Counted from the first letter of the stretch, positions 1 through 64,000 are shown. The stretch is 64,000 bases of DNA from Hymenobacter sp. YIM 151858-1 (GCF_025979705.1 NZ_CP110136.1:806001-870000), one strand, 5' to 3'. Numbers and translations: made by a program. The notes: generated from the sequence alone by a model not told the origin.

Positions 1-469
1 CGGGTACGGCGTTGCCTTGGTTGCCCTGCGTGTTCGGAATACCCATTTTCTTCTCGCGGGCTTTCTGGTACTTATCGAACTGCGCGGCCGTCAGCACGTC
101 CTTGAGCGCAGCCATGCGCGACTGGCCAATGTCTTCGATTATCACGTTCAGCTTGCGCAAATCGGCCCGGTGGCGGATGCGGGCTTCCTCTACCTGCCGC
201 ACGCTGCGCAGGTTTATCTGCCGTACTTTTTCTTCCTGCTGCGGGCTCAGGGCCAGGGCTTGCTTCAGGCCTTGCGTAAGGCCGTTGGCTTGCGCCTCAA
301 TTTTGGCATCGTCGAGCTTGGGAGCGGGCGCTGTTTGCGTGGCAGAGCCCCGGGTTTTGCCGGTGGCATCGGCCGGTTTGGGCTTGGTGGTAGCCGTTTG
401 GGCCCAGGCAGTGGGGGCAGCCGCCAGCAGCACGGCGGCCAGCAAAATCGATTTCGTGAGAGTGTTCAT
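1..469 (-). CDS. Exported small helical protein, C-terminus cut off by window edge
   Basis: Reading leftward from the ATG at 467-469 the frame stays open to base 1, so about 156 codons and no stop are visible. The N-terminus is a clear signal peptide (MNTLTKSILLAAVLLAAAP, ending near AWAQ at residue 25). A Thr/Pro/Ala/Lys-rich linker follows to about residue 55, then a charged, Gln/Arg/Glu-rich helical part (ALSPQQEEKVRQINLRSVRQ) that includes the phrase TAAQFDKYQKAREKK. This pattern resembles the small Spy/CpxP-like or DUF4890 periplasmic proteins of Bacteroidota, in which a TxxQ..KY motif recurs. The family assignment is inference; export is well supported. No partner gene is visible because the window ends here. 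Confidence 0.7.
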   Translation of the reverse strand, partial: MNTLTKSILLAAVLLAAAPTAWAQTATTKPKPADATGKTRGSATQTAPAPKLDDAKIEAQANGLTQGLKQALALSPQQEEKVRQINLRSVRQVEEARIRHRADLRKLNVIIEDIGQSRMAALKDVLTAAQFDKYQKAREKKMGIPNTQGNQGNAVP

Positions 470-655
470 CGCGTTCGGTAAGCAAAGGGGCCAACGCTTG
501 GCGTTGGCGCGCAGCACTGCGAAAATAGCGTGCCAGAGTTCTTTCGGTTGCTAAACGCTGCCGAGGCCGCATTTATTCCCAAGCTCGGCCACAAGTTGGG
601 GCAGTTCGCCCTAGGTGCCTGTAACCTTTCGGGTAGCTAAGCAATAGAAGGAAGC

Positions 656-1708
656 ATGAAGCAGCAATCCTCCCGCAATACCTGGCTCAAAGCCGCCGGC
701 ATAGGTGCCGCCGTAGCAGCCGCTGCCCTTTGGGCCAACCGCCGTGGTTCGTACGACTTGCGCGGCAAAGTAGTGCTGATAACCGGCGGTTCGCGCGGCC
801 TCGGGCTGGTACTGGCCCGGCAGGCCGCCGCCGAGGGTGCCCGCGTGGCCATCTGCGCCCGCGACGCCGACGAGCTGGAGCGCGCCCGCAAGGAGCTGCT
901 GGCCGAGGGCACCGAAATTCTGGCCCTGTCGCGCGACCTCAGCGACGAAACCGAGGTGCGCACCATGGTGGCCGAGGTGCGCAACGAGTTGGGCCCGATT
1001 GACGTGCTCATCAACAACGCCGGCATCATCACGGGCGGCCCGCTCGAGCACATGGATGTGCGCGACTACCAGGAGTCGATGGACATCCACTTCTGGGCCG
1101 CGCTGCACGCCATGTACGCCGTGCTACCCGACATGAAGCGCCGCCGCGAAGGGCGCATCATCAACATTGCCTCGGTAGGAGGCAAGGTAGCCGTGCCGCA
1201 CCTGGCGCCTTACTGCGCCAGCAAATTTGCTTTGGTGGGCTTGTCCGAAGGCTTTCGGGCCGAGCTACTGCGCTACGGCGTGTACGTTACTACCGTGTGC
1301 CCGGGCCTGATGCGCACCGGCTCGCCGCGCCAGGCCATCGTGAAAGGGCAGCACTTGCTGGAGTTTGCCTGGTTTATGGTGGCCGACTCGCTGCCGGTGC
1401 TTACCGTAAGCGCCCAGTACGCGGCCCGGCAAGTGTGGAATGCGGCCCGCCGCGGCGACGCGGAGCTGATTCTGGGGATGCCGGCCAAAATCATTTCGTT
1501 GCTCCACGGCATCGCGCCGGGCACCGTGGCCAACGTGCTCAGCATGGCCAACCGGAGCCTGCCCGGGCCCACCGGCGAGGCGGGCAACGAGCGGCGGCGC
1601 GGGTTCGAGAGCGAATCGGCTGTTACCAGATCGTGGCTGACCACGCTTACGCGCAAGGCCGAACGCGAAAACAACGAGCTGAACAACCACTCGCCGTATC
1701 CGGCTTAA
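656..1708 (+). CDS. SDR family oxidoreductase with N-terminal membrane anchor
   Basis: A 350-residue short-chain dehydrogenase/reductase. Residues 12-27 form a hydrophobic Ala-rich segment that probably anchors the protein in the inner membrane. The Rossmann cofactor motif TGGSRGLG is at residues 43-50, NNAG at 120-123, the catalytic Ser at about 173, and YCASK (Tyr186, Lys190) completes the active site. The family reduces or oxidises carbonyls and alcohols with NAD(P)H; the substrate cannot be told from the sequence. The tail after residue 260 is longer than in classical SDRs of about 250 residues and ends in a basic, polar stretch. The gene stands alone, 187 bp after the divergent gene at the left edge. 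The start is the ATG following GAAGGAAGC. Confidence 0.9.
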   Translation: MKQQSSRNTWLKAAGIGAAVAAAALWANRRGSYDLRGKVVLITGGSRGLGLVLARQAAAEGARVAICARDADELERARKELLAEGTEILALSRDLSDETEVRTMVAEVRNELGPIDVLINNAGIITGGPLEHMDVRDYQESMDIHFWAALHAMYAVLPDMKRRREGRIINIASVGGKVAVPHLAPYCASKFALVGLSEGFRAELLRYGVYVTTVCPGLMRTGSPRQAIVKGQHLLEFAWFMVADSLPVLTVSAQYAARQVWNAARRGDAELILGMPAKIISLLHGIAPGTVANVLSMANRSLPGPTGEAGNERRRGFESESAVTRSWLTTLTRKAERENNELNNHSPYPA

Positions 1709-1776
1709 AGCGCAGATCCTTACCTCGTCAGAAAAAAAATAGCCGGGTTTGCGTTTCAATCCGGCAAAACTCTTCC

Positions 1777-1784
1777 CATCTTTA
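1777..1784 (+). promoter_or_regulatory. Weak candidate -7 element before the Tyr-rich leader ORF
   Basis: CATCTTTA lies 5 nt before the ATG at 1789 and is a degenerate match to the Bacteroidota TAnnTTTG box. If real, the transcript would begin at or near the leader ATG, making it leaderless. No convincing TTG -33 box is seen at the right distance. Confidence 0.25.
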
Positions 1785-1788
1785 CCCC

Positions 1789-1893
1789 ATGCACCTGTTC
1801 AGCCAGTCGTACTATTATTATTACCCGACCTGCCAGCCCTCCGGCTTCGGCAACGGTCGTGTATGTACGACGGCATCCGAGCAGACTTACTAA
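1789..1893 (+). CDS. Tyr-rich 34-residue putative leader peptide before phhA
   Basis: An ATG-initiated ORF of 34 codons (MHLFSQSYYYYYPTCQPSGF, then GNGRVCTTASEQTY). It carries five consecutive Tyr codons (tac tat tat tat tac) at positions 8-12 and ends in Tyr. TAT is rare in the surrounding high-GC genes. The stop lies 26 nt before an intrinsic terminator (1920-1950), and phenylalanine hydroxylase, whose product is tyrosine, starts at 1981. This arrangement resembles amino-acid attenuators, where a ribosome stalled at codons for the pathway product prevents termination. The order and codon content are seen directly; the regulatory role is inference. The ORF could instead be chance, since no strong antiterminator pairing was found by eye. 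Confidence 0.5.
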   Translation: MHLFSQSYYYYYPTCQPSGFGNGRVCTTASEQTY

Positions 1894-1956: not shown

Positions 1957-1980
1957 ACCCCACTTCAAACCCTAGGTGCC

Positions 1981-2787: not shown

Positions 2788-2817
2788 GTTGGACCGGCAC
2801 CTAGGGAAACCGGAAAA

Positions 2818-3664: not shown

Positions 3665-3692
3665 GGTTAAAGGCTGTTTGTAAACTTACGCC

Positions 3693-4508
3693 CTAGGTGC
3701 CTTTTTGGCAAATAGGGCAGAAGTAGGTAGCACGCCCGCCTACATACTTTTTTACTATTGTAGTTTGGTCGGTGGGGCAGCGCTTGTAATCGTCGGAATT
3801 GGGTACGGGGTAGGGCTGCCACTCACGGGCATGTATAATAAAAGAAAGAGGGAAGCGTTGGTAGCTGGCTTCGTGCCCGATGGCCGTGCGCAATACCAGC
3901 TGTATGGCCGCGTGCAGGCGGGTTACTTCAGCGTGGGACAGGGAGGCCGCCACTCGCTCGGGGTGGATGCCGGCCTGAAACAAAACCTCATCGACAATCC
4001 AGTTGCCGAGGCCGGCGGTAAGGCGCTGATCGAGCAGCACGGGTTTGATCAGGGTTTTCTTACGGGCCAAGGCCGTGGCCAACTCGTCGGGCGTCAGGTC
4101 GAGGGCATCGGGCCCTAGGTGCTTTTCGCGCTGGTAGGCGGCCACGCTGCTGGCCACCCGGATACGGCCGAACTTGCGCGGATCGATAAAGGCCACGCGC
4201 AAGCCGTCGGCCAGGTGCAGGGCTACGCGGGTAAACCGCGGCCGGTCGTGCTGGTCGCGGTAGGCGCCTACGTCGCCCGTCATGCCAAAGTGCAGCACCA
4301 GCGCCTGCCCGTTCGAAAGCTCCAGGAAGCAGTTTTTACCCAGGCGCCGCGTGGCCGTGACGGTGGCGCCTACCACGGCGGCGCGCAGGTCGTCCTCCTT
4401 CACGGCCAGCACTTTGGCGTCGAGCACCTCCAGGGCAACAACGCGCTGGCCCACGACAAGCTCATCCAGAAAGCGGCGGTAGGTTTCTACTTCGGGTAAC
4501 TCGGGCAT
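3693..4508 (-). CDS. mutM: Formamidopyrimidine-DNA glycosylase (Fpg/Nei family)
   Basis: A 271-residue base-excision repair enzyme that removes oxidised purines such as 8-oxoguanine and nicks the abasic site. The start is MPELPEVETYR, since the catalytic Pro2 and Glu3 must be exposed after Met removal; the 15 upstream codons are therefore not used. The length equals the family norm. A helix-two-turn-helix region (about 140-190) with LDQRLTAGLGNWIVDE contains the usual GxGNxxxDE signature. The C-terminal zinc finger is odd: it reads CPTD, then about 17 residues later CPIC, so the second of four usual Cys ligands is Asp (see findings). Neighbours are unrelated. Confidence 0.93.
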   Translation of the reverse strand: MPELPEVETYRRFLDELVVGQRVVALEVLDAKVLAVKEDDLRAAVVGATVTATRRLGKNCFLELSNGQALVLHFGMTGDVGAYRDQHDRPRFTRVALHLADGLRVAFIDPRKFGRIRVASSVAAYQREKHLGPDALDLTPDELATALARKKTLIKPVLLDQRLTAGLGNWIVDEVLFQAGIHPERVAASLSHAEVTRLHAAIQLVLRTAIGHEASYQRFPLSFIIHAREWQPYPVPNSDDYKRCPTDQTTIVKKYVGGRATYFCPICQKGT

Positions 4509-5704: not shown

Positions 5705-5728
5705 GCGGAAAGCAGGAAGACAACGGAC

Positions 5729-6613
5729 CTAGGAAGGATCGGTGAGGAGGCCGATTTGCTGACCCTGCGGGTTGAAAATGCCGCCCTGGGCACTCACGTA
5801 AAGCATACGCTGCTGCACATCAACCAGCACGAAGGGGAAATCGGCGCTGGTGGAGCGGGTCAATCGGCCCACAACAGCGGCCGTGCGCTCCTGCGAGTCG
5901 AGCCGTACCACGTTGAGGTTGCGGGTAACGTAAAGCGGGTCGTTGGGGCTGTTGCGGAAGGTGAGCTTGCCCAAGAAGCCCGTCGAGGCAGGCTGCACCA
6001 CCACGGGGCGCGGCGCGGGCCTACGCGCAGCTACGGCTACCGGCTGGGCCGAGGGCACCGCGCCACGTACGCTGGCCATAATTTGCTGGTTGGCCTGCTG
6101 CCAGCCGCGCCCGATTGCCGTGAGGCGGGTGGGGCGGCCCGGGTGCGTGGGCGAGTCGTAATCCTGAGCAACCATCGACATGGCCGTTTGCGCCTCGGCC
6201 AGGCTGGCGCCCATCTTGCGCAGCACAAACCCCGAAAACTCATCGGCTTCGAGCTCATCGCCCGGGTTGGAGCCGCCGGGCTTCAGGGTGTGCCCGTTCA
6301 GGTGATGGCCCATTTCGTGTGCGATGATGCTGATGCCCGCCCAGTCGGTACGGCCGGCGCGGTTCACGGCGCCCACAAAATTGGGGTTGTATAGCAGGAA
6401 GCGCTTGCCCCCGTACACCACGGCGGCGGCGTTTTCAACTTGCGAAGTAGCACGCAGCTCAAAGCGCGGCTTCAGGCCCACGACGTCCGTGATTTCCCGC
6501 AGCACATCGCGCTGCGGCGCTGGCTGAGCAGCCGTGGCCTGCCCGCCCGAAACGAGGCTCCAACCGAGGAGTAAGCCCGAAAACAAGCGGCGAAAAATGC
6601 GGTTGTGGTTCAT
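5729..6613 (-). CDS. Exported zinc metalloprotease, M48-like
   Basis: A 294-residue protein starting at MNHNRIFRRLFSGLLLGWSL, a signal peptide probably cleaved near ATAAQ (residue 30). The zinc site HEMGHH is at residues 99-104, and the third-ligand region DELEADEFSGFVLRKMG (about 119-135) matches the ExEAD..S pattern of peptidase M48-type gluzincins. A Pro-rich linker (about 205-225) leads to a C-terminal beta-rich segment (VVGRLTRS, FPFVLVDVQQRMLYVS) of unknown role. It probably degrades or processes periplasmic proteins; the target is unknown. A longer frame to 6661 exists, but the signal peptide decides the start. Confidence 0.82.
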   Translation of the reverse strand: MNHNRIFRRLFSGLLLGWSLVSGGQATAAQPAPQRDVLREITDVVGLKPRFELRATSQVENAAAVVYGGKRFLLYNPNFVGAVNRAGRTDWAGISIIAHEMGHHLNGHTLKPGGSNPGDELEADEFSGFVLRKMGASLAEAQTAMSMVAQDYDSPTHPGRPTRLTAIGRGWQQANQQIMASVRGAVPSAQPVAVAARRPAPRPVVVQPASTGFLGKLTFRNSPNDPLYVTRNLNVVRLDSQERTAAVVGRLTRSTSADFPFVLVDVQQRMLYVSAQGGIFNPQGQQIGLLTDPS

Positions 6614-6835: not shown

Positions 6836-8911
6836 ATGACCAAACGCCGACCGTTCGCTTTCTTACTGTTTTCGTTGATGACGGCCGCAGGTGCCGCGCA
6901 AGCACAAGAGACGTGCATGCTTGAGCCGGTTGCATTGAGCCGCCGGGCCTCCGAATCGGCGTTGGTGGTGGAGGCGCGCATTGTGGGCCAGCAGGCCGTA
7001 GCCGATGCGGCCGGGCACATCTACACCATCAGCCAGCTCGAAGTTTACAAGGTGTTTCGGGGGCAGGTGCCGGCCGCCGGTATCCGGCTGGCCGAGCCCG
7101 GCGGTACCCTGGGTTTGCGCCGCGAAGAAGTAAGCGGCACCGCCGGCCTCGAAGTGGGCCAGCAGGGTATGTTCTTTCTGGAGGCCGACCCGGCCGCTCC
7201 GGGCCTAGGTGCGCTTCGGTTGTATGCCGGCCCGCAGGGCTTTGTGCGTTACGATGTGGCCACCCGCGTGGCTGCCGAGCCGTTCGGGCGTTACAACTCC
7301 ATCGAAAACGAGCTGTACCCGGCCGTGGAGCGCCACACCGGCAGGCGCTTTCAGGAGCTGCGGCGCAATGCCGAGCTGACGGCGCCCGTAGTGGTGGCGC
7401 GCGGCGCGGCGGCCCCGGCCGTCAGCAGCTTTTCGCCTAGTACCCTATCCTCCGGCACGGGGGCGGTGCTTACCATCGAGGGCTCGGGCTTTGGAAGTAC
7501 GCGCGGTACCGGCCGGGTAGAGTTTCCGAATGCCGACCAAGGCGGGCTCAGCAAGGTTGCCGCCAACAGCTCGGATTACGTTTCGTGGTCGGATACCAGA
7601 ATTGAGGTGCGCGTGCCTTCGAGCACGGGCAGCGGCGGTGCCGGCTCGGGCAAGTTTGTGGTGTACGCCGATGGCGGGGCCAGCGCCAGCAGCGCTACCA
7701 GCCTGAATATCGTTTTCTCCTACAGCAACATCGGCTCGGTGCCGGCCCGGGCGCGCCTCATCAACAAAGACAAGCAGGGCGGCTACACGCTGCAGTACAA
7801 CGCTACTTTTGCCGACCGGCCCGCGGCCCGCTCGTCGTTTGAGCGCGCCCTGGGTACGTGGGGCGCTGCCACCCGCCTGAGCCGCCGCATTGGCAGCAAC
7901 GTAACCACTTCCACGGCCGTCTCCGACGGCGTAAACGTGGTGCGCTTTGACGTGGGCACCGAGCTGCCGGCCGGCGTGCTGGGCCGCACCACCTCGTACT
8001 ACAGCGGCTGCGCGACCGGGGGCGTCACGTACTGGTCGGTGGCCGAAACCGACTTCACCTTCAACGACGACACGAACTGGAACTTCAGCGCCACGGCGCC
8101 GGCCTTTGCCCAGTACGACTTTGAAAGCGTGGCCCTGCACGAGCAAGGCCACGCCCACCAGCTGGGCCACATCATTCGGCCGGGGGCGGTAATGCACTAC
8201 GCCATTGCCAACGGGCAGCAGTCGCGCACGCTCAGCGCCGAAAGCGACGTAGCCGGCGGCCTGAGCGTGGTCGATTTCAGCCTGAAAAGCCCCAACCCCT
8301 GCGACTTCGCCCTGATTCAGCTGCTGCAGGCACCCACGCCTTTGCCCGTGGAGCTGATTGGCTTTGCAGCCCGCTACGAGCCCGGCCTGCCCGGCACACG
8401 CCTCAGCTGGGCAACGGCAAGCGAGCTGAGCAGCAGCTACTTTGCTGTGCAGGCTGCCGCCGAAGCCAACGCTACCACCTGGCAGGAGGTGGCCCGCGTG
8501 AACGCCGCCGGCCAAAGCAGCATCCGCCGCACCTACGAGGCTACCGATGCCCGCCCCCTAGGTGCCGGGCAGGTGCGCTACTACCGCCTGCGCCAGGTAG
8601 ATACCGATGGCTCAGAGCATTTCTCCTCTCCCGCAGTGGTTACGGGTGCTGGCGCCGTTACGGAACTCCAAACCTACCCCAACCCGGTAGCCGATGTGCT
8701 GCAGGTGCGCGGTCCGCTGGCCTCTCCGGCGTCCACGGTTCGCATTGTGCTCATCGATGCGGCCGGGCGCGTGGTGAAGGAGCTACGCTTGCCTGCGGGC
8801 AGCAGCTCGGCCGAGGTGCCCGTAGCTGGTTTGCGCAACGGATTGTATACCCTGCAGTGGCAGGCCGACGGCGGCAAGCCGTTGAGCCGCCGCGTGCTGG
8901 TGCAGCATTAA
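6836..8911 (+). CDS. Secreted metalloprotease-like protein with IPT/TIG domain and T9SS sorting tail
   Basis: A 691-residue secreted protein. Residues 1-23 are a signal peptide (ending GAAQAQ). An N-terminal domain of about 160 residues (VVEARIVGQQ, YKVFRGQVPA) is followed by an IPT/TIG immunoglobulin-like domain (about 195-290; SPSTLSSGTGAVLTIEGSGF). Next comes a matrixin-like catalytic domain with HEQGHAHQLGH at about 435-445, an HExxHxxxxxH zinc site typical of metzincins. The C-terminus (about 610-691) has the YPNPVAD...VRIVLIDAAGRVV pattern of the type IX secretion signal, which directs export across the outer membrane and often attachment to the surface. It is probably an extracellular protease; the substrate is unknown. 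Confidence 0.88.
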   Translation: MTKRRPFAFLLFSLMTAAGAAQAQETCMLEPVALSRRASESALVVEARIVGQQAVADAAGHIYTISQLEVYKVFRGQVPAAGIRLAEPGGTLGLRREEVSGTAGLEVGQQGMFFLEADPAAPGLGALRLYAGPQGFVRYDVATRVAAEPFGRYNSIENELYPAVERHTGRRFQELRRNAELTAPVVVARGAAAPAVSSFSPSTLSSGTGAVLTIEGSGFGSTRGTGRVEFPNADQGGLSKVAANSSDYVSWSDTRIEVRVPSSTGSGGAGSGKFVVYADGGASASSATSLNIVFSYSNIGSVPARARLINKDKQGGYTLQYNATFADRPAARSSFERALGTWGAATRLSRRIGSNVTTSTAVSDGVNVVRFDVGTELPAGVLGRTTSYYSGCATGGVTYWSVAETDFTFNDDTNWNFSATAPAFAQYDFESVALHEQGHAHQLGHIIRPGAVMHYAIANGQQSRTLSAESDVAGGLSVVDFSLKSPNPCDFALIQLLQAPTPLPVELIGFAARYEPGLPGTRLSWATASELSSSYFAVQAAAEANATTWQEVARVNAAGQSSIRRTYEATDARPLGAGQVRYYRLRQVDTDGSEHFSSPAVVTGAGAVTELQTYPNPVADVLQVRGPLASPASTVRIVLIDAAGRVVKELRLPAGSSSAEVPVAGLRNGLYTLQWQADGGKPLSRRVLVQH

Positions 8912-8965: not shown

Positions 8966-8988
8966 CCCATTTGCGGGCCAGTCAGCAC

Positions 8989-11208: not shown

Positions 11209-11406
11209 GGCTGAGCGCAGCGTGTCAGGTGCTGCCGCGCTCTATACGCGCCTAGGTGCCCAAAGGATCAAACGAATCGGGTTTTTTATATAGGGCATTG
11301 CATAACACCTGCATGCGGGCTGATGTTGGGGCCGCAGTGGTAAAATCCGTATTTCTCGCCGGGCAAAATCCGTATCAGTCCTGCCCAAGCCGGTTTTCGG
11401 GCGCCG
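11209..11406. other. Non-coding stretch before the small RNA candidate
   Basis: There is no plausible gene here. It contains an 11-bp direct repeat AAAATCCGTAT (about 11342 and 11366), one GCCTAGGTGCC motif near 11250, and TTG followed 21 nt later by TATTTCTC (about 11323-11352), a possible plus-strand promoter. Confidence 0.4.
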
Positions 11407-11499: not shown

Positions 11500-11650
11500 G
11501 CCCGGCAACCAAGGCAGCGCCGCATGCCGGCCCTAGGTGCCCGGGCGCCGCGGCCGGCCCAACAGGTGCTGCAGGCCGCTTCGGGGTAAAATTTTCGCTT
11601 TGAGAATCAGTTTCATCAGGCTGCTGACGAGTTTTTTTTGCCGCGGGCTA

Positions 11651-14943: not shown

Positions 14944-14976
14944 CTGCCGCCACGTAACTGCCTAGGTGCCCAGGTA

Positions 14977-51978: not shown

Positions 51979-52109
51979 AATTCGGTATGCGGATGAAGAT
52001 GCAAACTAATGAGGTTTGGCCGAACAACCAGCTGCCGAGCCGCTAATCGGCCGAAAAGCTGGGTGCGGCGGGCCTAGGTGGTTCAGCCCTAACGGGATAG
52101 GCAGGGGGG

Positions 52110-52526: not shown

Positions 52527-52646
52527 GGGGCGAGTAGCCATCGGGGTAGGAGTGGGTACGGGTGATGACCATTGCCTTGCAGCGGGCCCTGGGTGGTAAT
52601 GCACCTAGGGCCTGCTGCCAAAAGCATGGGAGCGGCGTTGCCGCGT

Positions 52647-54373: not shown

Positions 54374-54546
54374 GGGCGCAGGGGCGAGCCAAGGAGCTCA
54401 GCAGTTTACTTGTACGCAAACCCTAGGTGCTCGGATAAACATGCGGCGCGGGCAGCCGCTGGGCACAGCTTCGGTGGGTTAGGGGCGGCGAGCAGGCCTG
54501 CCCCGCCGCGGCGCCGCTCCCGCCGGGCAGGCGCGTGCGGCGGCAC
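54374..54546. other. Gap with CCTAGG motifs and no gene
   Basis: It contains CCTAGGTGC at about 54422 and GCACCTAGG at about 54545, and GC-rich low-complexity sequence. Nothing else is seen. Confidence 0.4.
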
Positions 54547-54651
54547 CTAGGCGCCGATCACCAGGGCCGCCAAAGCCCGGCAGGCGGCCGGCAACAGCAC
54601 GAGCAGCCATAGCAGGCGGTGGCGGGTTGGGTAGCTGATAACGAGTGGCAT
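54547..54651 (-). CDS. Possible 34-residue single-pass membrane peptide
   Basis: An ATG ORF of 34 codons lies between the DUF4112 and DisA_N-like genes on the minus strand. Its product has a basic start (SYPTRHR) and one hydrophobic segment (LLWLLVLLPAACRALAALVI). It ends at the CTAG of a CCTAGG motif. There is no recognised family and no promoter; it is included only as a hypothetical small protein. Confidence 0.2.
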   Translation of the reverse strand: MPLVISYPTRHRLLWLLVLLPAACRALAALVIGA

Positions 54652-54748: not shown

Positions 54749-56203
54749 TTACTTCTTCGACGAGAGCAAGTCGATCCAGCCGTCTTCGCTTACTACCACC
54801 GCCAGCGTGGGGTAGCGGGCACTTTCGACGTAGCGCACGGCCGAGTTGTAGCGCGAGCCGCGCGAGGAGTCGCCTTTTTCGGTGGCCAGCCCGTCGAGAA
54901 TGGCCCCAATGGCAAAGCATGTGCCTTGCGGATCGATGAGCACGGCGCCGTCGATGTTGGTGACGAGGCACAGCACCGAGGGCGTGATAAACCTAGGGGC
55001 CACCCGGAAGCTCTGCCGCGTGAGGCGCTTGGCCTCGGCCGCCGCGTTTTCCGAAATAACCAGAATGGTGCCGGTGCGCTGCGTGGTGGCCTTCATGGTC
55101 AGCTCCCAGAGGTTTTCCACGGTGCTGGCGTCGAGGGCAGGCCAGAGGCGCTGAATGGTGGCCGCAAAAAACTGCTCGTTGATGCGCGCCTGCGGCAGCC
55201 GGGGCGTGCCCGATACCACGCGCATCATCAGCTCCTTGTCGTGGCTGAGCTCCCAGTTGTGGTGGGTGGTGAAGCGCACCATAAACAGCGGCTCGTACTG
55301 CTCGTCGGCCGGTTCGGCCAAGTGCCCCAGGCCAAATACCTGGGTGCCATCGGAGATAAGCGAAGTGCGGCCTTCGCTCATTTCGAGCAGCTTGCGCACG
55401 GAGCGGTGGTCGCGCAGGGGCACCGGGGTTTCGAGCGTGAGCACGGGTACCACAGCGGGGTGGTTGCGGCGGGCAATGAGCATGGTGCCTTTGCCCTCGA
55501 TGCCCTCGTGGCGCAGGGCGGCCACGCCGTTGCAGGCGTCGTAGAGGCCGTGGTTGCCGCTGGAGGGGGCGTGCATAAAGCGCCGGCCGGCGGCGCGCAG
55601 CAGCTCGTTGTAGTCGCGGTCGAGAATGGGGCGGTCTTCTTCCTGGTCGAGGTCGGTGCCGCGCAGGGCCTTGCTGCAGTCGAGCAGAAACTCGCGCACT
55701 ACCGCGTGCAGCAGCGACACCGGGCGGGCATCGGGCGTTTTGGGGTTGGCGGGCAGGGCGTAATAGCTGGCAAAAGGCTCGGCCGAAAGCTGCAGCACCG
55801 CCATGATGAGGTAGCCGTTCAGCAGCACCGGCATCGAGCAGAACACGCGGCGGCCCAGGCCCGTGGCTTTGCTTTCGAGCTCCAACTCCACGGCGCGGCG
55901 CAGCAGCAGGTACCAGCGTTGCTTTTCGAGGCGGTCCTGCTCCTCGTGGTACAGGTGGTACACGGGCTCGTAGGTGCCCTCGCGCTCCAGCGAGTTGGCG
56001 CGCTCCTTTACGTGGGCGAAATCGGCGGAGGTGTAGTCGTGCGAGCCGGCCTCGAGGCGCACGGCATCGGGCGATTCGCTGCCCCGCGACACCGCCAGGC
56101 CCACCAAAAACACATCGGGCCGCAGCGTACGATCGAGCAGGTTAAATATGCCCTCGGCGAACAGCTGCGCCGATACCCGGAACAAACTTTGGTATTCCCA
56201 CAT
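54749..56203 (-). CDS. DisA_N domain protein, diadenylate cyclase-like with altered motif
   Basis: A 484-residue protein from MWEYQSLFRVSAQLF. The N-terminal about 390 residues are of unknown fold (WEYQSLFRVSAQLFAEGIFN, DTRPVSLLHAVVREFL-like phrases). The C-terminal DisA_N/DAC domain has NIDGAVLIDPQGTCFAIGAI with DGA at 418-420, and GSRYNSAVRYVESA at 449-462, in place of the GTRHRAA motif of active c-di-AMP synthases; so RHR has become RYN. VVVSEDGWIDLL matches VSEETGxIxL. It could be an inactive or differently specific nucleotidyl cyclase or a nucleotide sensor. The longer frame to 56356 is not used because it has no similarity. No obvious partner. Confidence 0.78.
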   Translation of the reverse strand: MWEYQSLFRVSAQLFAEGIFNLLDRTLRPDVFLVGLAVSRGSESPDAVRLEAGSHDYTSADFAHVKERANSLEREGTYEPVYHLYHEEQDRLEKQRWYLLLRRAVELELESKATGLGRRVFCSMPVLLNGYLIMAVLQLSAEPFASYYALPANPKTPDARPVSLLHAVVREFLLDCSKALRGTDLDQEEDRPILDRDYNELLRAAGRRFMHAPSSGNHGLYDACNGVAALRHEGIEGKGTMLIARRNHPAVVPVLTLETPVPLRDHRSVRKLLEMSEGRTSLISDGTQVFGLGHLAEPADEQYEPLFMVRFTTHHNWELSHDKELMMRVVSGTPRLPQARINEQFFAATIQRLWPALDASTVENLWELTMKATTQRTGTILVISENAAAEAKRLTRQSFRVAPRFITPSVLCLVTNIDGAVLIDPQGTCFAIGAILDGLATEKGDSSRGSRYNSAVRYVESARYPTLAVVVSEDGWIDLLSSKK

Positions 56204-56705: not shown

Positions 56706-56745
56706 CCACACCTTTCCGGCGCACCTGCGGGCCGCTTGCCGCGGC

Positions 56746-57984
56746 CTAGGTGGCCGTGTGCTGCAGCCATTGCGCCATGCCCCGGGCAGCCCAGGCCCCG
56801 GTGCTAAAGCACCCCTGCAGCAGGTAGCCGCCCGTGGGCGCTTCCCAATCCAGCATTTCGCCGGCCACAAACACGCCGGGGCGGCGCAGCAGCATCAGGT
56901 GCTCGTTTACTTCCTCGAAGGGTACGCCGCCGGCCGTGCTGATGGCTTCGTCGAGGGGGCGCAGGGCCGTAATGGGTAGGGGCAGGGCCTGCAATAGTTT
57001 GGCTAGCCGGGCAGTATCGGCCAGGGTGGCCGCGGGGGCCACCTCGCGCAGCAGCGTAGGAATGGGTGGGCCCAGCTTCAGGTGTTGGCGCAGCACATCG
57101 GGCAACGAGCGGCCGCGGCGGGCTTGCTGCAGCCGTTGCAGTACCTCGGCAGGCCCTAGGTCGGGTTTGAGGTTGAGCAGCAGCTGGGCCGGCACTTGGG
57201 CTTGCAGGGCCTCCCGAATGGCGGGCGTAAGGGCGTACACCGGGGTGCCCTCGAGGCCGTATTCCGTCAGCATTACCTCGCCGCGCGCCTCGTGTTGGCC
57301 GCAGCGCAAAAGCACGTTTTTCAGCGGCGTGCGGCCCACCTTCTCCCGAAAAAAAGCCGACCAGGCCACCTCTACCCCGCAGTTGCTGGGCCTGAAGGGC
57401 ACGCTTTGCAAACCCAGGGCCTGCTCGAGTACCGGCAGCCACTGGCCATCGGAGCCGGTTTTGGCCCAACTGGCGCCGCCCAAAGCCAGCAGCGTAGCCC
57501 TGGGCGCCACCGAAAACTCGGTGCCGGTACGCTCGTTGCGCATCAGCAGCCCGCCGCCGGGGCCAAAACCCAGCCAGCGGTGGCGGGTGTGCAGCTGCAC
57601 GCCCAGGTGCTCGAGGCGCTGCAGCCAGGCCCGCAGCAGGTGGGCCGGCTTGTGCTCCTCAAGCGGAAACACGCGCCCGCTGCTGCCCACGTACGTGGCA
57701 ATGCCCAATTGGGCAGCCCAGCGGCGCAGCTCGGCGGGCCCAAAGTGCCCTAGGTACTGCTCGAAGGCTTGCCGCCGATGACCGTAGCGCGGACCGAAAG
57801 CGGCCACCGGCTCGCCGTTGGTGAGGTTGAAACCGCCGTGGCCGGCCACCAGAAACTTCCGCCCCGGCGTGGCCTGCGCCTCGTACACGGCTACGCCTTG
57901 CACCCCGGCCTCGGCCAGGTGTTGGGCGGCCACCAGCCCGGCCGGGCCGCCGCCAATAATGGCTACTGTGGGGTGCTGCTGCAT
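56746..57984 (-). CDS. TIGR03862 family flavoprotein (HI0933-like oxidoreductase)
   Basis: A 412-residue protein from MQQHPTVAIIGGGPAGLVA. The FAD-binding phrase GGGPAGLVAAQHLAEAG is at about 10-26, and LLALGGASWAKTGSDGQW, YALTPAIREAL and PTGGYLLQGCFSTGAWAAR match the TIGR03862 subgroup of the HI0933 family. Members are NAD(P)/FAD-dependent oxidoreductases of unknown substrate. Start at 57984 gives the usual first strand; a longer frame to 58011 is possible. It stands alone. Confidence 0.9.
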   Translation of the reverse strand: MQQHPTVAIIGGGPAGLVAAQHLAEAGVQGVAVYEAQATPGRKFLVAGHGGFNLTNGEPVAAFGPRYGHRRQAFEQYLGHFGPAELRRWAAQLGIATYVGSSGRVFPLEEHKPAHLLRAWLQRLEHLGVQLHTRHRWLGFGPGGGLLMRNERTGTEFSVAPRATLLALGGASWAKTGSDGQWLPVLEQALGLQSVPFRPSNCGVEVAWSAFFREKVGRTPLKNVLLRCGQHEARGEVMLTEYGLEGTPVYALTPAIREALQAQVPAQLLLNLKPDLGPAEVLQRLQQARRGRSLPDVLRQHLKLGPPIPTLLREVAPAATLADTARLAKLLQALPLPITALRPLDEAISTAGGVPFEEVNEHLMLLRRPGVFVAGEMLDWEAPTGGYLLQGCFSTGAWAARGMAQWLQHTAT

Positions 57985-58062: not shown

Positions 58063-59253
58063 ATGGGACCGTACTCCATCCTCATTTACCTGAGCGTTGC
58101 CATCATCCTGTCGTACCTGTTCGACATGGCCGCGCGGGCTACCAAAATACCGTCGGTGCTGATGCTATTGCTCACGGGCATAGCCATTAAGCAAGCCGTC
58201 GACTACGCCGGGACGGCCGTGGTGCTGCCCCAGGTTACATTGCAGCTGCTCGGCATTGTGGGCCTGATCATGATCGTGCTCGAGGAGTCGCTCAACCTCA
58301 AAATAAACCCCGAAAAAGGCCCGCTGATCCGGCGCGCGTTTGTGGCCGCCGCCGTGATGCTGCTGGTGCAGGCCCTGACCATTGGTTGGCTGCTGCAGTT
58401 GTACCTAGGGATGCCGTTCCAGACGTGCCTGCTCAACGCCGTGCCGCTGGCCGTTATCAGCAGTGCCGTGGCCATACCCAGCGTGGCGGGCCTCGGGGGC
58501 GAAAAGCAGGAGTTTATCGTGTACGAAAGCACGTTTTCCGACATCCTGGGCATCATGTTTTTCAACTTCGTGGCGCAGGACAACTTCGCGCAGGGCGTGT
58601 CGGTGCTCACCTTCGGCCGCGACATCATCGCGGTGGTGCTGGTATCGGTGCTGAGTACGGTGGTGCTGGCCTTTCTGCTCGATCGGATTCGCCTGCACGT
58701 CAAGTTCTTCCTGATTCTGGCATTCCTGATTCTGATTTACTCGCTGGCCAAAAAGCTGCACTTGTCGTCGTTGCTGGTGGTGCTGGTGTTCGGCCTCACG
58801 GTTAGCAATGCCGAGCTGTTTTTGCGCGGGCCGGTGCGCCGTTGGCTCCGCCTCGAGCGCCTGCAGGAGGAGCTGCATCAGCTGCAAAGCATCACGGCCG
58901 AGTCGGCTTTCCTCATCCGCACGTTCTTCTTTTTGCTTTTCGGCTTCTCCATCACGCTCAGCAACGTGCTCGATGCGCGCCTGCTGCTGCAAGGGGCGCT
59001 GATTGTGGGCGTGCTCACGGCCATTCGCTATGTGTACCTGCGCTACGTATCGCGCTCCAGCCTGGTGCCGGAGGTGTTTATCGCGCCCAAAGGCCTCATT
59101 ACCATTTTGTTGTTTTACAGTATTCCCGAGAAACACCTCATCGAGGGCGTCAGCGAAAACATCCTGTTCGTGGTAATCCTGCTCACCGGCCTGCTGATGC
59201 TCGTCGGGCTTCAGCTGCCCAGCAAAGAGCCCGCCCAGTTGGGGGAATATTAG
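58063..59253 (+). CDS. Cation:proton antiporter (CPA family)
   Basis: A 396-residue membrane protein with about 12 segments, for example ILIYLSVAIILSYLFDMAAR, LGIVGLIMIVLEESLNLKIN and LLTGLLMLVGLQLPSKEPAQ. IPSVAGLGG and YESTFSDILGIMFFN are conserved regions of the Na+/H+ antiporter family where the ion-binding Asp (SDILG) is found. It exchanges monovalent cations for protons at the inner membrane. It has no C-terminal TrkA-N domain. The repeat region after it begins one base past the stop. Confidence 0.9.
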   Translation: MGPYSILIYLSVAIILSYLFDMAARATKIPSVLMLLLTGIAIKQAVDYAGTAVVLPQVTLQLLGIVGLIMIVLEESLNLKINPEKGPLIRRAFVAAAVMLLVQALTIGWLLQLYLGMPFQTCLLNAVPLAVISSAVAIPSVAGLGGEKQEFIVYESTFSDILGIMFFNFVAQDNFAQGVSVLTFGRDIIAVVLVSVLSTVVLAFLLDRIRLHVKFFLILAFLILIYSLAKKLHLSSLLVVLVFGLTVSNAELFLRGPVRRWLRLERLQEELHQLQSITAESAFLIRTFFFLLFGFSITLSNVLDARLLLQGALIVGVLTAIRYVYLRYVSRSSLVPEVFIAPKGLITILLFYSIPEKHLIEGVSENILFVVILLTGLLMLVGLQLPSKEPAQLGEY

Positions 59254-59612
59254 GAGCTTGGGAGTTAAAGAGTTTTGCGTTTAGGAGTTGGGCAGGCTTG
59301 TTATCCTGACGAGGAACCTCACCCCCAACTCCCTCTCCCAAGGAGAGGGGAGCCAGGCGACCTAGGGCCCGGCTGTCATGTCGAGCGAAGCGAGACATCT
59401 GGCGTGCTGTCGTCCGTTAGCATACACTCCCCCTCTCTTTTGGAGAGGGGGCCGGGGGGTGGGGTCCCGGTAGAGCTCTTCGCTTGGCTCAGGATGACAG
59501 GTAGGAACGGTCAGGCCTGGATGTAGTTGGCTCCTATTCCAACTACTCATCAGCTTAACTCTCAAAACCTACCGACTCCTGAACTCAAAACTCGCAAACT
59601 CACCAACTGCAC
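59254..59612. repeat. Cluster of dispersed repeats in the intergenic gap
   Basis: No gene is seen. From outside in: GAGTT/AACTC low-complexity tracts at both ends (59258-59290 and about 59545-59600); two hairpins CTCCCTCTCC/GGAGAGGGGAG (59328-59351) and CCCCCTCTC/GAGAGGGGG (about 59429-59451); and REP-like phrases TGTCATGTCGAGCGAAGC (about 59374) and CTCAGGATGACAGG (about 59490). The arrangement is nested and inverted, as in 38621-39145. Confidence 0.75.
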
Positions 59613-61391
59613 TTACTCGCTTTCCTTGATGAGCTGTTTGCGGTAGCCGGCCAGGATGGCCGATTTGAGCAGGAAGCCAACGTAACGGCCGTTTTTGAGC
59701 ACCGGCAGCGCCCATACGTTGAGCTGCTCCATGCACCGCAAAATGTCGAGCAGGGTATCGTCGACGTTGATGGTGGCGGGGGGCTCGGTCATCAGGTCGC
59801 TTACGCGGGTGGTGTTGTAGTGCTCCTCGTCGAACAGGGCGTCGCGCACCTGATCGAGGGAAATGATGCCGACCAGGGCCCCGTCGTTATCCACCACCGG
59901 AAAGAGGTTGCGGGTGGCATGGCGGAAAATGTCTACCAGTTCACCTAGGGTTGCATCGGGCTGAATGGGCTCGAAATCGGTTTCCACCATTCGCGGCAAA
60001 TCGAGCTGGGCGAGCAGGCCCCGGTCGCGGTCTTGGTGCACATACACGCCGCGCTGCACCAGCTTGCGCGTGTACACCGAGTACGGCTCGAAGTAGCGGG
60101 TGATGATGTAGGAGCAGCTCGTTACGAACATCAGCGGCACAAACAGCGCGTACCCGCCCGTGATTTCGGCGATTAGGAAGATGGCCGTGAGCGGCGCGTG
60201 CACCACGCCGGCCAGCGTGCCGGCCATGCCCAGCACCACAAAGTGCACCTCGGGCACCACAAACAGGCCGCTCAGGTTGATCAGCCGGGCAATGACAAAA
60301 CCCAGCAAGGCCCCCGAAAACAACGACGAGCCGAACATGCCGCCGTTGCCGCCCGCGCCAATGGTAATGCACGTGGCAAACACCTTCAGGAGCATGGAGC
60401 TGCCGGCCACCAGCAGCAGAATCCACACATTTTCGTCGCGGTACACCGAGAAAATACTCGCATCGAGCAAGTGGCTGGGCTCGCCGCTCAGCAACGACTG
60501 CACAATGTTGTAGCCCTCGCCGTAAAGCGTCGGGAACAAAAATACCAGCACGCCCAGGGCCGTGCCGCCGAGCAGCACCTTGCGGTACGAGCCGCGCCAC
60601 CGCTCAAACCACTTTTCGGCCGCGAAGTAAATGCGGATCATGTAGACCGAAAGCAGGGCCGCGCCCAGGCCCAGCAGCAGGTAAAACGGCACCGTATCGA
60701 CGGACCAACTGGTGGTAATCAGCACGAAGGGCTGGCCCGAAAACAGCAGCTTGGACACCAGCGTGGCCGTGGCCGAGGAGATGAGCAGCGGAATGAAAAA
60801 CGGCGCCGACAGCTCGCTCAGCACTACCTCCACCGCAAACAGCACCCCCGCAATGGGCGAGTTAAAGATGGCCGCCACGCCGGCCGCGGCGCCGCAGCCC
60901 ACCAGCAGGCGCCGCTCGCGCCGGCTCACGCGCAGCACGCGGGCCAGGTTGGAGCCAATGGCCGAACCCGTAACCGAAATGGGCGCCTCCAAACCCGCCG
61001 ACCCGCCAAACGTAACCGTCAGGAACGAACTGACCCACTGCGAGTACATGCGCGAGCGGGGTACCACCGAGCCTTGGCGCGCCACCGAGTAGATGATGGG
61101 CCCGATGCCGCGCCCCAATTGCCCGCCCAGCACGTAGCGCGTAAAGAGCACCGTTAGGGCAATGCCGATGATGGGGTACAGAAACAGCGCGAATACCCGC
61201 TTTTGCTCGGGTACCCAGCCGTAGAGCAGCTCCTGGCCCCAGTGCACACTGTTTTTGAGCAGCACGGCCGCCAGGCCGGCCAGCGCACCTACCAAAATGC
61301 TCACCATAATCAGGTATAGCCGGTCGCTTACGTGGCGCAGGCGCCAGAGCAGCAGCGGGCTAAGCAGACGGTGAACAACGTTTTTGGGCAT
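59613..61391 (-). CDS. ClC family chloride channel/antiporter with CBS pair
   Basis: A 592-residue membrane protein from MPKNVVHRLLSPLLLWRL. The pore has FGGSAGLEAPISVTGSAIGS (the GxxGxEGP-type selectivity filter, here GLEAP), and AGVAAIFNSPIAGVLFAVEV; about 10 membrane segments follow. Two CBS domains form the C-terminal about 130 residues (DATLGELVDIFRHATRNLFP and the CBS-2 phrase LLDILRCMEQLNVWALPVLK), probably sensing nucleotides. It conducts or exchanges Cl-/H+ at the inner membrane. It is monocistronic. Confidence 0.93.
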   Translation of the reverse strand: MPKNVVHRLLSPLLLWRLRHVSDRLYLIMVSILVGALAGLAAVLLKNSVHWGQELLYGWVPEQKRVFALFLYPIIGIALTVLFTRYVLGGQLGRGIGPIIYSVARQGSVVPRSRMYSQWVSSFLTVTFGGSAGLEAPISVTGSAIGSNLARVLRVSRRERRLLVGCGAAAGVAAIFNSPIAGVLFAVEVVLSELSAPFFIPLLISSATATLVSKLLFSGQPFVLITTSWSVDTVPFYLLLGLGAALLSVYMIRIYFAAEKWFERWRGSYRKVLLGGTALGVLVFLFPTLYGEGYNIVQSLLSGEPSHLLDASIFSVYRDENVWILLLVAGSSMLLKVFATCITIGAGGNGGMFGSSLFSGALLGFVIARLINLSGLFVVPEVHFVVLGMAGTLAGVVHAPLTAIFLIAEITGGYALFVPLMFVTSCSYIITRYFEPYSVYTRKLVQRGVYVHQDRDRGLLAQLDLPRMVETDFEPIQPDATLGELVDIFRHATRNLFPVVDNDGALVGIISLDQVRDALFDEEHYNTTRVSDLMTEPPATINVDDTLLDILRCMEQLNVWALPVLKNGRYVGFLLKSAILAGYRKQLIKESE

Positions 61392-62668: not shown

Positions 62669-63100
62669 TTACTCGGCGATGTCTTCGTTCCAGAGCGTGG
62701 GCTCGGCGGCGATGAAGTCTTCCATCATCTGCACGCACTCGGGCAGGTCGAGGTCGATAACTTCCACGCCGTGGCTTTCCATAAACTCGCGGGCCCCGTC
62801 GAAGGTGCGCGATTCGCCCACAATCACCTTCGGAATTTTGAACTGCACGATGGTGCCGGCGCACATGTAGCAAGGCATCAGGGTGCTGTAAATCACGGTG
62901 TCGCGGTAGGTACTTTGGCGGCCGGCGTTGGTGAGGCAGTCCATTTCGCCGTGCTTGATGGCGGAGCCTTCCTGCACGCGCTTGTTGTGGCCTTTGGCTA
63001 CTATCTGGCCGTTGCGTACCAGCACCGAGCCAATCGGAATACCACCCTCGGAGCGGCCCAGGCGGGCTTCGTCGATGGCGGCTTGCATGAATTCGTCCAT
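62669..63100 (-). CDS. Cytosine/nucleoside deaminase of the fungal Fcy1 type
   Basis: A 143-residue zinc deaminase. The catalytic HGEMD (about 49-53) and PCYMCAG (about 76-82) hold the zinc ligands and the proton-shuttle Glu. The pattern EGGIPIGSVLV, KGHNKRVQEGSAIKHGE, YSTLMPCYMC and the C-terminal WNEDIAE resemble yeast cytosine deaminase (WFEDIGE tail) more than tRNA-adenosine deaminase TadA. It would convert cytosine to uracil for pyrimidine salvage; the substrate is inferred. It is monocistronic. Confidence 0.9.
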   Translation of the reverse strand: MDEFMQAAIDEARLGRSEGGIPIGSVLVRNGQIVAKGHNKRVQEGSAIKHGEMDCLTNAGRQSTYRDTVIYSTLMPCYMCAGTIVQFKIPKVIVGESRTFDGAREFMESHGVEVIDLDLPECVQMMEDFIAAEPTLWNEDIAE

Positions 63101-63227
63101 GGGAAAGAAATAGGTTTTGTGGCCGCAAAGGTAGCAGCTAGCCCACCGTTGCGCGGCCGACAGCCCTAGGTGATGCCGGCCGAGTAGCCGGCCGGGAGCA
63201 ACGGCAGAAGCGCAGTAAGCAGCTGGG

Positions 63228-63596
63228 CTAAAATGCCTGCCCGCGGGCCCAGTCTTCGGCCGACTGCTTTTGCTGCGGGGTAAAGTGCTTGATGAGGGCC
63301 GGCGTGAGGCTGGTGCCCAACCCCACGGCGGCGTTTACCAGGGCGCTATCTTCGGTAATCACGGCCACGCGGTTAAAATCTTTGTAGTGCTTGATGTCCT
63401 GCCGGATTTCCTCCCACAGCGCCCGCAGCGAAATGCCGTCGAAATGGCGCACTTCCACGCACACGTTCACCTTGTTCCAGCGGGCAATTTTCTGCTCCAG
63501 CACGGGCACCACCTGGTCGTAATCGGCCCGCGAAATGGGCCCGTTGATGATGAACGTGAGGAGGTTGTGGTCGGGATGATCAACGGCTCGGAGCAT
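63228..63596 (-). CDS. SpoIIAA-like (STAS/DUF3478) protein
   Basis: A 122-residue cytoplasmic protein from MLRAVDHPDHNLLTFIINGP. The pattern of GPISRADYDQVVPVLEQKIA, VNVCVEVRHFDGISLRALWE and YKDFNRVAVITEDSALVNAA matches the SpoIIAA-like/DUF3478 family, a STAS relative that may bind lipids or act in signalling. The start MLRAVDHPDH is used; the frame extends to 63785 but that part is unlike the family. The partner is unknown. Confidence 0.82.
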   Translation of the reverse strand: MLRAVDHPDHNLLTFIINGPISRADYDQVVPVLEQKIARWNKVNVCVEVRHFDGISLRALWEEIRQDIKHYKDFNRVAVITEDSALVNAAVGLGTSLTPALIKHFTPQQKQSAEDWARGQAF

Positions 63597-63658
63597 GGCC
63601 TTGGCAATTATTAGTACTGCATTGGTTACGCGTTGGTGGCCACAGGGTTGATTCTTCG

Positions 63659-63979
63659 CTACGAGAGGAAGTAGCGCGACCAGAACACCCAACCCCAAAG
63701 GAGCGGAAATACGAATGGGCTGACAATCAGGCAGCCGTATAGTATTGCTGGGAGCTGATCGTGGTGAGCAACCGAGGAAAAGCACATGCCTAGGTACAGC
63801 ACAGTCTGAACAGCCAAGGTTGCGCTACCTGTCGCCGCAAAAAAGGACGAATATGGGCGTTTGCGTTTAGCAGGTGTAGCACTCCTCCTTAAGAAACCGG
63901 CTAAGCAAGCTGTTGCCAACAGGCCAATAAGTCCTGGGCACAAGTAAAGCAATGCGTATTGCTGAAGCGCCGCTAGCAT
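63659..63979 (-). CDS. Small membrane protein, hypothetical
   Basis: A 106-residue protein with about three hydrophobic segments (LLYLCPGLIGLLATACLAGF, ATGSATLAVQTVLYLGMCFS and AILYGCLIVSPFVFPLLWGW) and a basic loop (RRSATPAKRKR). The GC content is lower than in its neighbours, and no family is recognised. It is the last gene in the window, ending 62 bp upstream of the SpoIIAA-like start on the same strand. Confidence 0.5.
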   Translation of the reverse strand: MLAALQQYALLYLCPGLIGLLATACLAGFLRRSATPAKRKRPYSSFFAATGSATLAVQTVLYLGMCFSSVAHHDQLPAILYGCLIVSPFVFPLLWGWVFWSRYFLS

Positions 63980-64000
63980 CCTTTCCTACCTAGCGCAGAT

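Follow-up and report, generated by a model that had tools for sequence, protein, structure and literature searches.

A non-palindromic, oriented word built on CCTAGG fills the chromosome of Hymenobacter sp. YIM 151858-1

Why does the hexamer CCTAGG recur so often in one bacterial chromosome? The question is raised by a stretch of 64,000 bases from Hymenobacter sp. YIM 151858-1 (here the window), bases 806,001-870,000 of the 4,362,723-base main contig in a genome of 4.62 Mb and three contigs (G000). An earlier note on this DNA put the count at about 78 CCTAGG and about 25 extended nine-mers, against expectations of about 20 and about one. A recount gives exactly 78 and 25 (11 GCACCTAGG and 14 CCTAGGTGC), where base composition predicts 21.4 and 0.8; the positions given earlier are either correct or displaced by one or two bases (609 for 610, 44754 for 44753, 50980 for 50978). 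Markov models of orders 1, 2 and 3 expect 13.2, 9.3 and 13.6 CCTAGG in the window, and the Poisson probability of 78 or more given 13.6 is 3e-33. The order-4 expectation of 67.7 lies near the observed count and is circular, because CCTAGG itself accounts for 78 of the window's 108 CTAG. An external control settles the matter: the whole genome carries 5,325 CCTAGG (1.15 per kb), against 123-249 in each of five congeneric genomes of 4.9-6.3 Mb. The letter-reversed control, GGATCC, has 75 copies in the genome. The excess is confirmed as genuine and genome-wide, not a peculiarity of the window; among relatives the picture is mixed, since two further genomes of the genus have it (5,678 and 6,212 copies), the five congeners do not, and it is scattered across the family.

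The repeated unit is not the palindrome that it had been taken for. In the window, 72 of the 78 sites are extended on one side only, reading [CGT]CCTAGGT on one strand, five have neither flank and one has both. In a sample of 424 kb, consisting of the window and 18 of 19 slices of the G000 chromosome (L004, which overlaps the window, was dropped), 467 of 509 CCTAGG are [CGT]CCTAGGT: 294 are CCCTAGGT or its complement, 140 are of the GCCTAGGT type and 33 of the TCCTAGGT type, and the rare forms ACCTAGGT, CCCTAGGG and GCCTAGGC number 8, 6 and 6. The extended form is one-sided, because the 12-base palindrome GCACCTAGGTGC occurs only four times in the genome. Since a T follows the core or an A precedes it, and rarely both, the unit is an oriented, non-palindromic 8-mer, SCCTAGGT, after which GC is weakly preferred. 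Its orientations are nearly equal genome-wide (2,561 forward, 2,535 reverse). In 380 kb it was seen 439 times against a Markov expectation of 5.7 (77-fold), and one-letter variants at core positions 1-6 were seen 726 times against 635 expected, 1.14-fold overall; position 1 alone was raised about twofold (43 against 20), and the other positions were near one.

The word is also visible in codon choice. On the chromosome, a leucine (Leu) codon lying between C and GG is CTA in 46% of 562 cases, compared with 2-7% of Leu codons without a following GG. Where the flanks fit, the otherwise rare CTA is used in 242 of 354 Leu-Gly contexts (68%; 143 of 199 for V...T, 99 of 155 for A...V), against 17 of 203 (8%) where neither flank fits and one of five where both are present. 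The eligible synonymous positions are near saturation, with about two thirds taken. This conversion is even over the genes of the sampled chromosome (chi-squared 175, 195 degrees of freedom). Beyond 50 bp, how far away the next site lies makes no difference to it; at shorter distances, 3 of 11 contexts are converted. Codon usage, base composition or repeats would be the plainest source of such an excess, and 260 of the 293 coding sites do lie in the single frame xxC CTA GGx. This explanation is refuted by the dependence of CTA on its context, by the five congeners that lack the excess and by an intergenic density above the coding one, and we give it next to no credence.

Genes were called with our own simple caller (dicodon scoring) rather than a published tool. 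On these calls, site density in the 424 kb sample is 0.87 per kb in coding sequence (293 sites) and 2.5 per kb between genes, gene-edge sites included (193 + 23 sites), with 4.25 per kb in convergent, 2.43 in tandem and 2.21 in divergent gaps. The description of sites as lying just past stop codons stands as an intergenic enrichment, highest within the first 50 bases, and falls as a claim to one sharp position (ten-base bins of 18, 16, 4, 14 and 18, then 5, 8, 9 and so on). Two sites placed at hairpin apices, at 29560 and 39989, do sit on stems of 15 and 8 pairs. Across the sample, 6 of 192 intergenic sites, these two included, lie between arms of at least 8 pairs, compared with 9 of 3,840 control places and none of the 293 coding sites. 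Spacing is near random (coefficient of variation 0.97), and a set-point model with even spacing was rejected. Only 4 pairs in the sample lie within 25 bp of each other, where 15 would be expected, as if neighbouring sites kept each other away. Orientation shows no clear polarity along the G000 contig, whose origin was not mapped (136/112 in one half, 103/116 in the other, P = 0.096). A role in orienting FtsK was considered, as the word of another genome, GGGTAGGG in G113, resembles GGGNAGGG, the FtsK-orienting polar sequence (KOPS); it was rejected for want of a clear polarity in G000.

Sites are conserved between species beyond their surroundings. The window aligns with G010 (very probably H. 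oligotrophus) at 86.5% identity over 52,136 bases and with G025 (Solirubrum puertoriconensis) at 85.9% over 40,023 bases. G010 retains 21 of 27 CCTAGG that lie in Leu-Gly contexts and G025 retains 19 of 22, against 34 of 129 and 25 of 99 for other Leu-Gly hexamers; intergenic sites are kept in 13 of 18 and 8 of 13, against 41% and 35% of other intergenic hexamers. At two sites, 49168 and 56745, the core is kept between species and the orientation differs. Motif-free relatives have CCGAGG, CCCAGG, CCTGGG or GCGCGG at the orthologous places, and because they differ so variously, many kinds of substitution must have led to sites. A single Vsr-like or Dcm-type substitution as sole cause was rejected on these grounds, CCAAGG and multi-base differences also being seen, and on the absence of PF00145 from G010 and G025 (Vsr itself was not searched).

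The secondary contigs, in contrast to the chromosome, are nearly free of the word. C2 of G000 (158,200 bases) has 16 CCTAGG, four of them one-sided, and 1 of 29 eligible Leu contexts converted; C3 (100,000 of 100,856 bases) has six, two one-sided, and 0 of 17 converted. Three small contigs of G010 have 2, 0 and 1 CCTAGG, with 0 of 3, 0 of 12 and no eligible contexts converted, so that all five secondary contigs of the two genomes nearly lack the motif. G025 is a draft whose contigs can be classed by the motif alone: of five contigs sampled at 12.5-20 kb each, three are marked (C2 11/16, C3 18/20, C7 14/16) and two are not (C4 and C5, 0/3 each), and stretches of C5 match C2 of G000 at 79-89% identity. 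In the g5 genomes, 20 kb of G195 C2 held no CCTAGG and 20 kb of G184 C1 held three (G195 is very probably Hymenobacter sp. GOD-10R). C2 of G000 bears transfer genes (TraG, a coupling protein and a relaxase), and C3 has in one stretch 96.8% identity to a plasmid from Hymenobacter sp. YIM 151500-1; given the transfer genes and the near kin in another host, these plasmids seem to move.

The distribution over the family is patchy. Among 204 genomes, nine carry 5,325-8,806 CCTAGG, four carry 1,209-2,331 and 191 carry 888 or fewer. The RecQ of the window, 96% identical to that of S. puertoriconensis, places the strain near that species, and on a RecQ tree of 22 rows the CCTAGG trait has to change at least twice among the named loci (the window with S. 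puertoriconensis; H. setariae, very probably our G137, with BT559). k-mer scans took in 49 genomes, many chosen by CCTAGG count, for the most part over 20-40 kb each (range 8.6-380 kb), together with 13 other named loci, possibly overlapping with these genomes; words were compared in a cross-table of 40 rows. Other Hymenobacter genomes have other words, at 0.3-2.3 per kb. Those of the CCTAGG type overlap: G137, G184, BT559, G079 and G195 also have [CGT]CCTAGGT (0.47-1.30 per kb), ACCTAGGT/AGCTAGGT is typical of G079, G195 and G156, and CCCTAGGG of G058 (0.50 per kb, 0.18 or less elsewhere). The remaining words are distinct. TGGCCTA marks G158, G159, G203 and G199 (0.70-1.45 per kb, 0-0.47 elsewhere) and GGCTAGCC marks G031 and G049 (0.50 and 0.30 per kb, 0.07 or less elsewhere). 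GGGTAGG (0.85-1.57 per kb in G113, G123, G052 and H. citatus, 0.60 in G119, 0.5 or less elsewhere) and GGGGCCC (2.25 per kb in G055 and H. coccineus, 0.4 or less elsewhere) are weaker cases: GGGTAGG lies mostly opposite the gene strand (38 of 47 coding cases in G113), and a codon effect is possible behind it.

The scans also recorded avoidance of short words. GATC occurs at 0-0.02 per kb in slices of 20-44 kb from G071, G093, G021, G031, G049, G052, G073 and G064 and is likewise absent or nearly so at loci L098, L099, L100, L102 and L119. GGATCC, built on the letter-reversal of CTAG, is avoided to the extreme of 0-8 copies per genome in several members of the family. Depletion of CTAG outside CCTAGG, to about 0.4-1.7 per kb, is seen in g1 and in many more members of the genus, and not in the g5 genomes G137, G079, G195, G149 and G194 (about 3-5 per kb).

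What could write such a word? An account has to cover the motif, its orientation and density, the near-saturation, the conservation, the unmarked contigs of two genomes, the patchiness and the other words elsewhere. Our preferred reading, which we hold tentatively and rate as possible rather than probable, is that SCCTAGGT serves as a lineage-specific, non-palindromic mark by which the chromosome is recognized as self in recombination or uptake. A DNA-binding protein of a recombination process would read it, the process being either pilus-independent uptake of related DNA or a Chi-like break repair, and the word would spread by point mutations that the process favours wherever the sequence tolerates them. 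That such a reader exists and serves recombination or uptake is what we infer from the pattern of sites. Two observations on other Bacteroidota speak for this reading: Riemerella columbina is reported to prefer its own DNA in transformation (PMC7965970), and no pilus gene is among the genes described as essential from a screen in R. anatipestifer (PMC8459023). The AddB-like domain treated below also counts in its favour. Orientation, intergenic preference, presence on both strands, dialects and unmarked plasmids fit a mark like the DNA uptake sequences (DUS). DUS occur at about 1 per kb. SCCTAGGT likewise is non-palindromic, runs at about 1 per kb on both strands, prefers intergenic and terminator positions and has dialects; in Neisseriaceae, DUS prefer intergenic regions and terminators, and their species dialects share a common core and follow phylogeny (PMC3630211). 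Hymenobacter words diverge more than DUS dialects do, close relatives lack the word, saturation is approached without a spacing effect and no pilus ATPase was over cut-off in the 30 genomes searched.

Chi sites, for their part, are read by RecBCD or AddAB. SCCTAGGT resembles them in being oriented and species-specific, and an AddB-like domain (PDDEXK_1, PF12705), whose long frames appear from their length to be of AddB size, was found in 38 of 38 genomes searched. It differs in having no clear strand polarity and in its strength, 77-fold over the Markov model, compared with about sevenfold over base composition for Chi of E. coli (1,008 against 151; PMC1939737). A PDDEXK_1 match also overlaps the right edge of the window by six bases (G000:C1:869,995-870,906, minus strand, in a frame of 1,094 aa).

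Several results weigh against a self-recognition mark. The one-mismatch over-representation typical of DUS and uptake signal sequences (USS) was not found in the 380 kb, and uptake sequences, Chi and HIP1 (highly iterated palindrome 1) are, in the data given in PMC1939737, enriched in one-letter variants, unlike SCCTAGGT. An uptake drive should saturate at about the fragment length, so the missing distance effect beyond 50 bp argues the other way; together with sharpness, patchiness and missing pili it makes a misfit to a DUS-like mark. The plasmids may lack sites through short residence as well as through exemption, and the CCTAGG rate on C2 of G000 (16 in 158 kb) is some threefold above that of the congeners. 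The five motif-free congeners had no comparable word in the k-mer scans; the word that ranks highest in them, TGCGCGA (z up to 14), is elevated in the marked genomes as well. The top k-mers of R. columbina are runs of A or T, with no clear uptake word. The type IV pilus/type II secretion ATPase, PF00437, was over cut-off in none of 30 genomes, with one weak match (G113), although all 14 control genomes matched, 13 of them over cut-off; canonical pilus-driven uptake is thereby not supported. Marked and unmarked genomes do not differ in carrying the AddB-like domain. DUF5689, an uptake-receptor candidate taken up from the Riemerella screen, was rejected, with strong matches in 39 of the 204 genomes, unmarked ones included. 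No reader gene emerged among the families searched (PF00145, PF01555, PF00437, DUF5689 and PDDEXK_1).

Some details of the DUF5689 search are worth recording. Strong matches came first in eight marked genomes, G064 and G059 foremost; G064 has no clear word, and G000, G010, G025, G058, G159, G203 and G199 have no strong match. Weak matches, including one at 21896-22861 in the window, represent another gene, present in marked and unmarked genomes and in several loci lying beside what is presumably murB. At L229-L238 lipoprotein-like DUF5689 frames of about 430-480 aa stand beside a SusD-like protein (assigned by Pfam on one neighbour only).

A different account, ranking close behind the self-recognition mark and in our judgement possible if somewhat doubtful, follows Elhai's model for HIP1 and the alternate HIPs: an enzyme of DNA modification or repair, specific for the word, would bias mismatch repair nearby towards making and restoring it, and the sites need no function. 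In cyanobacteria, these words run at about 0.5-2.5 per kb and are swapped for others in some relatives (PMC4390886). SCCTAGGT is similarly short and GC-rich, with 1.15 CCTAGG per kb and other words in some relatives, but it belongs to another phylum and is an oriented 8-mer on a CTAG rather than a GATC core. The all-or-none hexamer core and the word swapping fit a HIP-like enzyme, as do the density of about 1 per kb, the patchy distribution, action site by site with no distance effect beyond 50 bp and the palindromic words of G058, G031 and G049. Orientation and the missing common methylases do not fit: the G000 word is non-palindromic, and among 30 genomes searched by family profile, 13 of them CCTAGG-rich or mid, the C5 methylase PF00145 was found in 10 (4 of the 13) and the N4/N6 methylase PF01555 in 16 (5 of the 13), both being missing from G010, G156, G184, G195 and G199, five of the 13 (other methylase families were not searched). 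The suggestion that the sites mark methylation by a cognate methylase is, within the same two families, not supported in these five. The sparing of the secondary contigs of G000 and G010 also speaks against such a drive, unless all of them arrived recently. One-letter variants of HIP1 are about 11-fold enriched (PMC1939737), those of SCCTAGGT hardly at all. The earlier comparison with HIP1 and uptake sequences therefore survives as a resemblance, while each class has defining tests that the word fails.

G000 itself does have a methylase match, L039 (G000:C1:3020053-3022109), where a PDDEXK_1 match in a frame of 286 aa directly precedes a C5 methylase; the two look like a restriction-modification pair. 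Host genomes usually avoid restriction sites, in contrast to the excess of CCTAGG here. The core hexamer is the site of AvrII, BlnI, BspA2I and XmaJI, and E. coli has 0 GCCTAGGC against 151 expected (PMC1939737).

The word might instead be the binding site of a chromosome-organising protein, held by weak selection site by site. The nearly motif-free secondary contigs of G000 and G010, the uniformity over the sampled chromosome and the signs of mutual hindrance (the few close pairs, the low conversion below 50 bp) would agree with this. A structural role would make it costly to swap words between related species or to lack the word in five congeners, and no clear polarity runs along the chromosome; we consider it unlikely. 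The self-recognition mark thus remains our preferred reading.

The sites of the window are collected in Table 1, where G035 is Hymenobacter edaphi. An intergenic stretch at 59322-59500 matches many places in G010 and few in other congeners and is probably a member of a dispersed intergenic repeat family.

Table 1 CCTAGG sites of the window, from a listing of CCTAGG positions; presence in relatives is from alignment of the window.
Feature	Coordinates	Strand	Remarks
Window-wide field of 78 CCTAGG	1..64000		72 one-sided, 5 neither flank, 1 both
CCTAGGT site	610..616	+	also in G010
CCTAGGT site	1971..1977	+	also in G010
CCTAGGT site	2799..2805	-	
CCTAGGT site	3692..3698	+	also in G010
CCTAGGT site	4114..4120	+	also in G010
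CCTAGGT site	5727..5733	-	also in G010
CCTAGGT site	7204..7210	+	not in G010
CCTAGGT site	8557..8563	+	also in G010
CCTAGGT site	8987..8993	-	
CCTAGGT site	9710..9716	+	not in G010
CCTAGGT site	9813..9819	-	also in G010
CCTAGGT site	11251..11257	+	also in G010
CCTAGGT site	11532..11538	+	
CCTAGGT site	13387..13393	-	not in G010 or G025
CCTAGGT site	13935..13941	-	also in G010
CCTAGGT site	14496..14502	-	
CCTAGGT site	14961..14967	+	also in G010
CCTAGGT site	15464..15470	+	also in G010, G025
CCTAGGT site	15650..15656	+	also in G010, G025
CCTAGGT site	17780..17786	+	also in G010, G025
CCTAGGT site	18260..18266	-	also in G010, G025
CCTAGGT site	19219..19225	+	also in G010
CCTAGGT site	19481..19487	+	also in G010, G025
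CCTAGGT site	20222..20228	+	also in G010, G025; CCTGGG in G035
CCTAGGT site	21887..21893	-	also in G025
CCTAGGT site	23103..23109	+	also in G010, G025; CCGTGG in G035
CCTAGGT site	24137..24143	+	also in G010
CCTAGGT site	24776..24782	-	also in G010, G025; CCCAGG in G035
CCTAGGT site	25783..25789	-	also in G010, G025
CCTAGGT site	26026..26032	-	also in G010, not in G025
CCTAGGT site	26692..26698	+	also in G010
CCTAGGT site	29081..29087	-	also in G010, G025
CCTAGGT site, end of recQ-like frame 27211-29457	29453..29459	+	
CCTAGGT site, apex of 15-pair stem	29560..29566	+	
CCTAGGT site	29589..29595	+	
CCTAGGT site	29824..29830	-	
CCTAGGT site	30910..30916	-	
CCTAGGT site	33953..33959	+	
CCTAGG, neither flank	34054..34059		
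CCTAGGT site	34910..34916	-	
CCTAGGT site	34950..34956	-	
CCTAGGT site	35128..35134	+	also in G010, G025
CCTAGGT site	38723..38729	+	
CCTAGG, neither flank	38764..38769		
CCTAGGT site	38928..38934	-	
CCTAGGT site	38982..38988	-	
CCTAGGT site	39955..39961	-	
CCTAGGT site, loop of 8-pair stem then T's (terminator-like by eye)	39989..39995	+	also in G025
CCTAGG, neither flank	40590..40595		ACCTAGG in G025
CCTAGGT site	41447..41453	+	also in G025
ACCTAGGT, both flanks, sole one in window	41628..41635		
CCTAGG, neither flank	42287..42292		CCTAGG also in G010
CCTAGGT site	42928..42934	-	also in G010, G025; CCCAGG in G035, G030
CCTAGGT site	43789..43795	-	CCTAGG in G010, G025; CCGAGG or CCCAGG in five relatives
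CCTAGGT site	44668..44674	+	also in G010
CCTAGGT site	44753..44759	+	also in G010
CCTAGGT site	46272..46278	+	not in G010
CCTAGGT site	46304..46310	-	also in G010
CCTAGGT site	47491..47497	-	CCCAGG in G010
CCTAGGT site	49168..49174	+	opposite orientation in G025; CCAAGG in G010
CCTAGGT site	49497..49503	+	also in G010, G025; CCGAGG, CCCAGG or CCCAAG in five relatives
CCTAGG, neither flank	49704..49709		CCTAGGT in G010, CCGAGG in G025
CCTAGGT site	50345..50351	+	also in G025, not in G010
CCTAGGT site	50977..50983	-	also in G010
CCTAGGT site	52073..52079	+	also in G010, G025
CCTAGGT site	52603..52609	-	also in G010, G025
CCTAGGT site	54180..54186	+	also in G010, G025
CCTAGGT site	54422..54428	+	also in G010, G025
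CCTAGGT site	54545..54551	-	
CCTAGGT site	54991..54997	-	also in G010, G025; GCGCGG in five relatives
CCTAGGT site	56745..56751	+	opposite orientation in G010
CCTAGGT site	57155..57161	+	also in G010, G025
CCTAGGT site	57749..57755	+	also in G025, not in G010
CCTAGGT site	58403..58409	-	also in G025; CCTGGG in four relatives
CCTAGGT site	59360..59366	-	
CCTAGGT site	59943..59949	-	also in G010, G025; CCCAGG or one letter off in four relatives
CCTAGGT site	63165..63171	+	also in G010, G025
CCTAGGT site	63789..63795	+	CCGAAA in G025

Within our literature searches, whose coverage leaves out most subscription journals, CCTAGG was not joined with Hymenobacter, nor a DNA uptake sequence with over-representation in Bacteroidetes. 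The best 10 of 80 matches on palindrome over-representation or restriction-modification in Hymenobacter held nothing relevant, and among the matches listed for four marked species there were mentions in other settings only. The claim to novelty is limited to the literature so covered.

Why some genomes fill with one short word is a question that has stood since HIP1. It is quite possible, if just short of probable, that the Hymenobacteraceae hold a further class of genomic watermark beside Chi, DUS/USS and HIP: swappable, lineage-tied and often non-palindromic words with all-or-none recognition, written site by site to about two thirds of eligible synonymous positions, with plasmids spared and no dependence on type IV pili or on C5/N4 methylases. 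A single family here holds relatives with the word, without it and with a swapped one, together with unmarked plasmids, so that presence can be compared with gene content, and a figure can be put on the strength of the drive: 68% against 8% for matched codons. Should the word prove to be a self-recognition mark, it would suggest pilus-independent recognition of own DNA in the Bacteroidota; if it is a by-product of repair, it would reveal a mutational force that is specific to a sequence and strong enough to determine codon choice.

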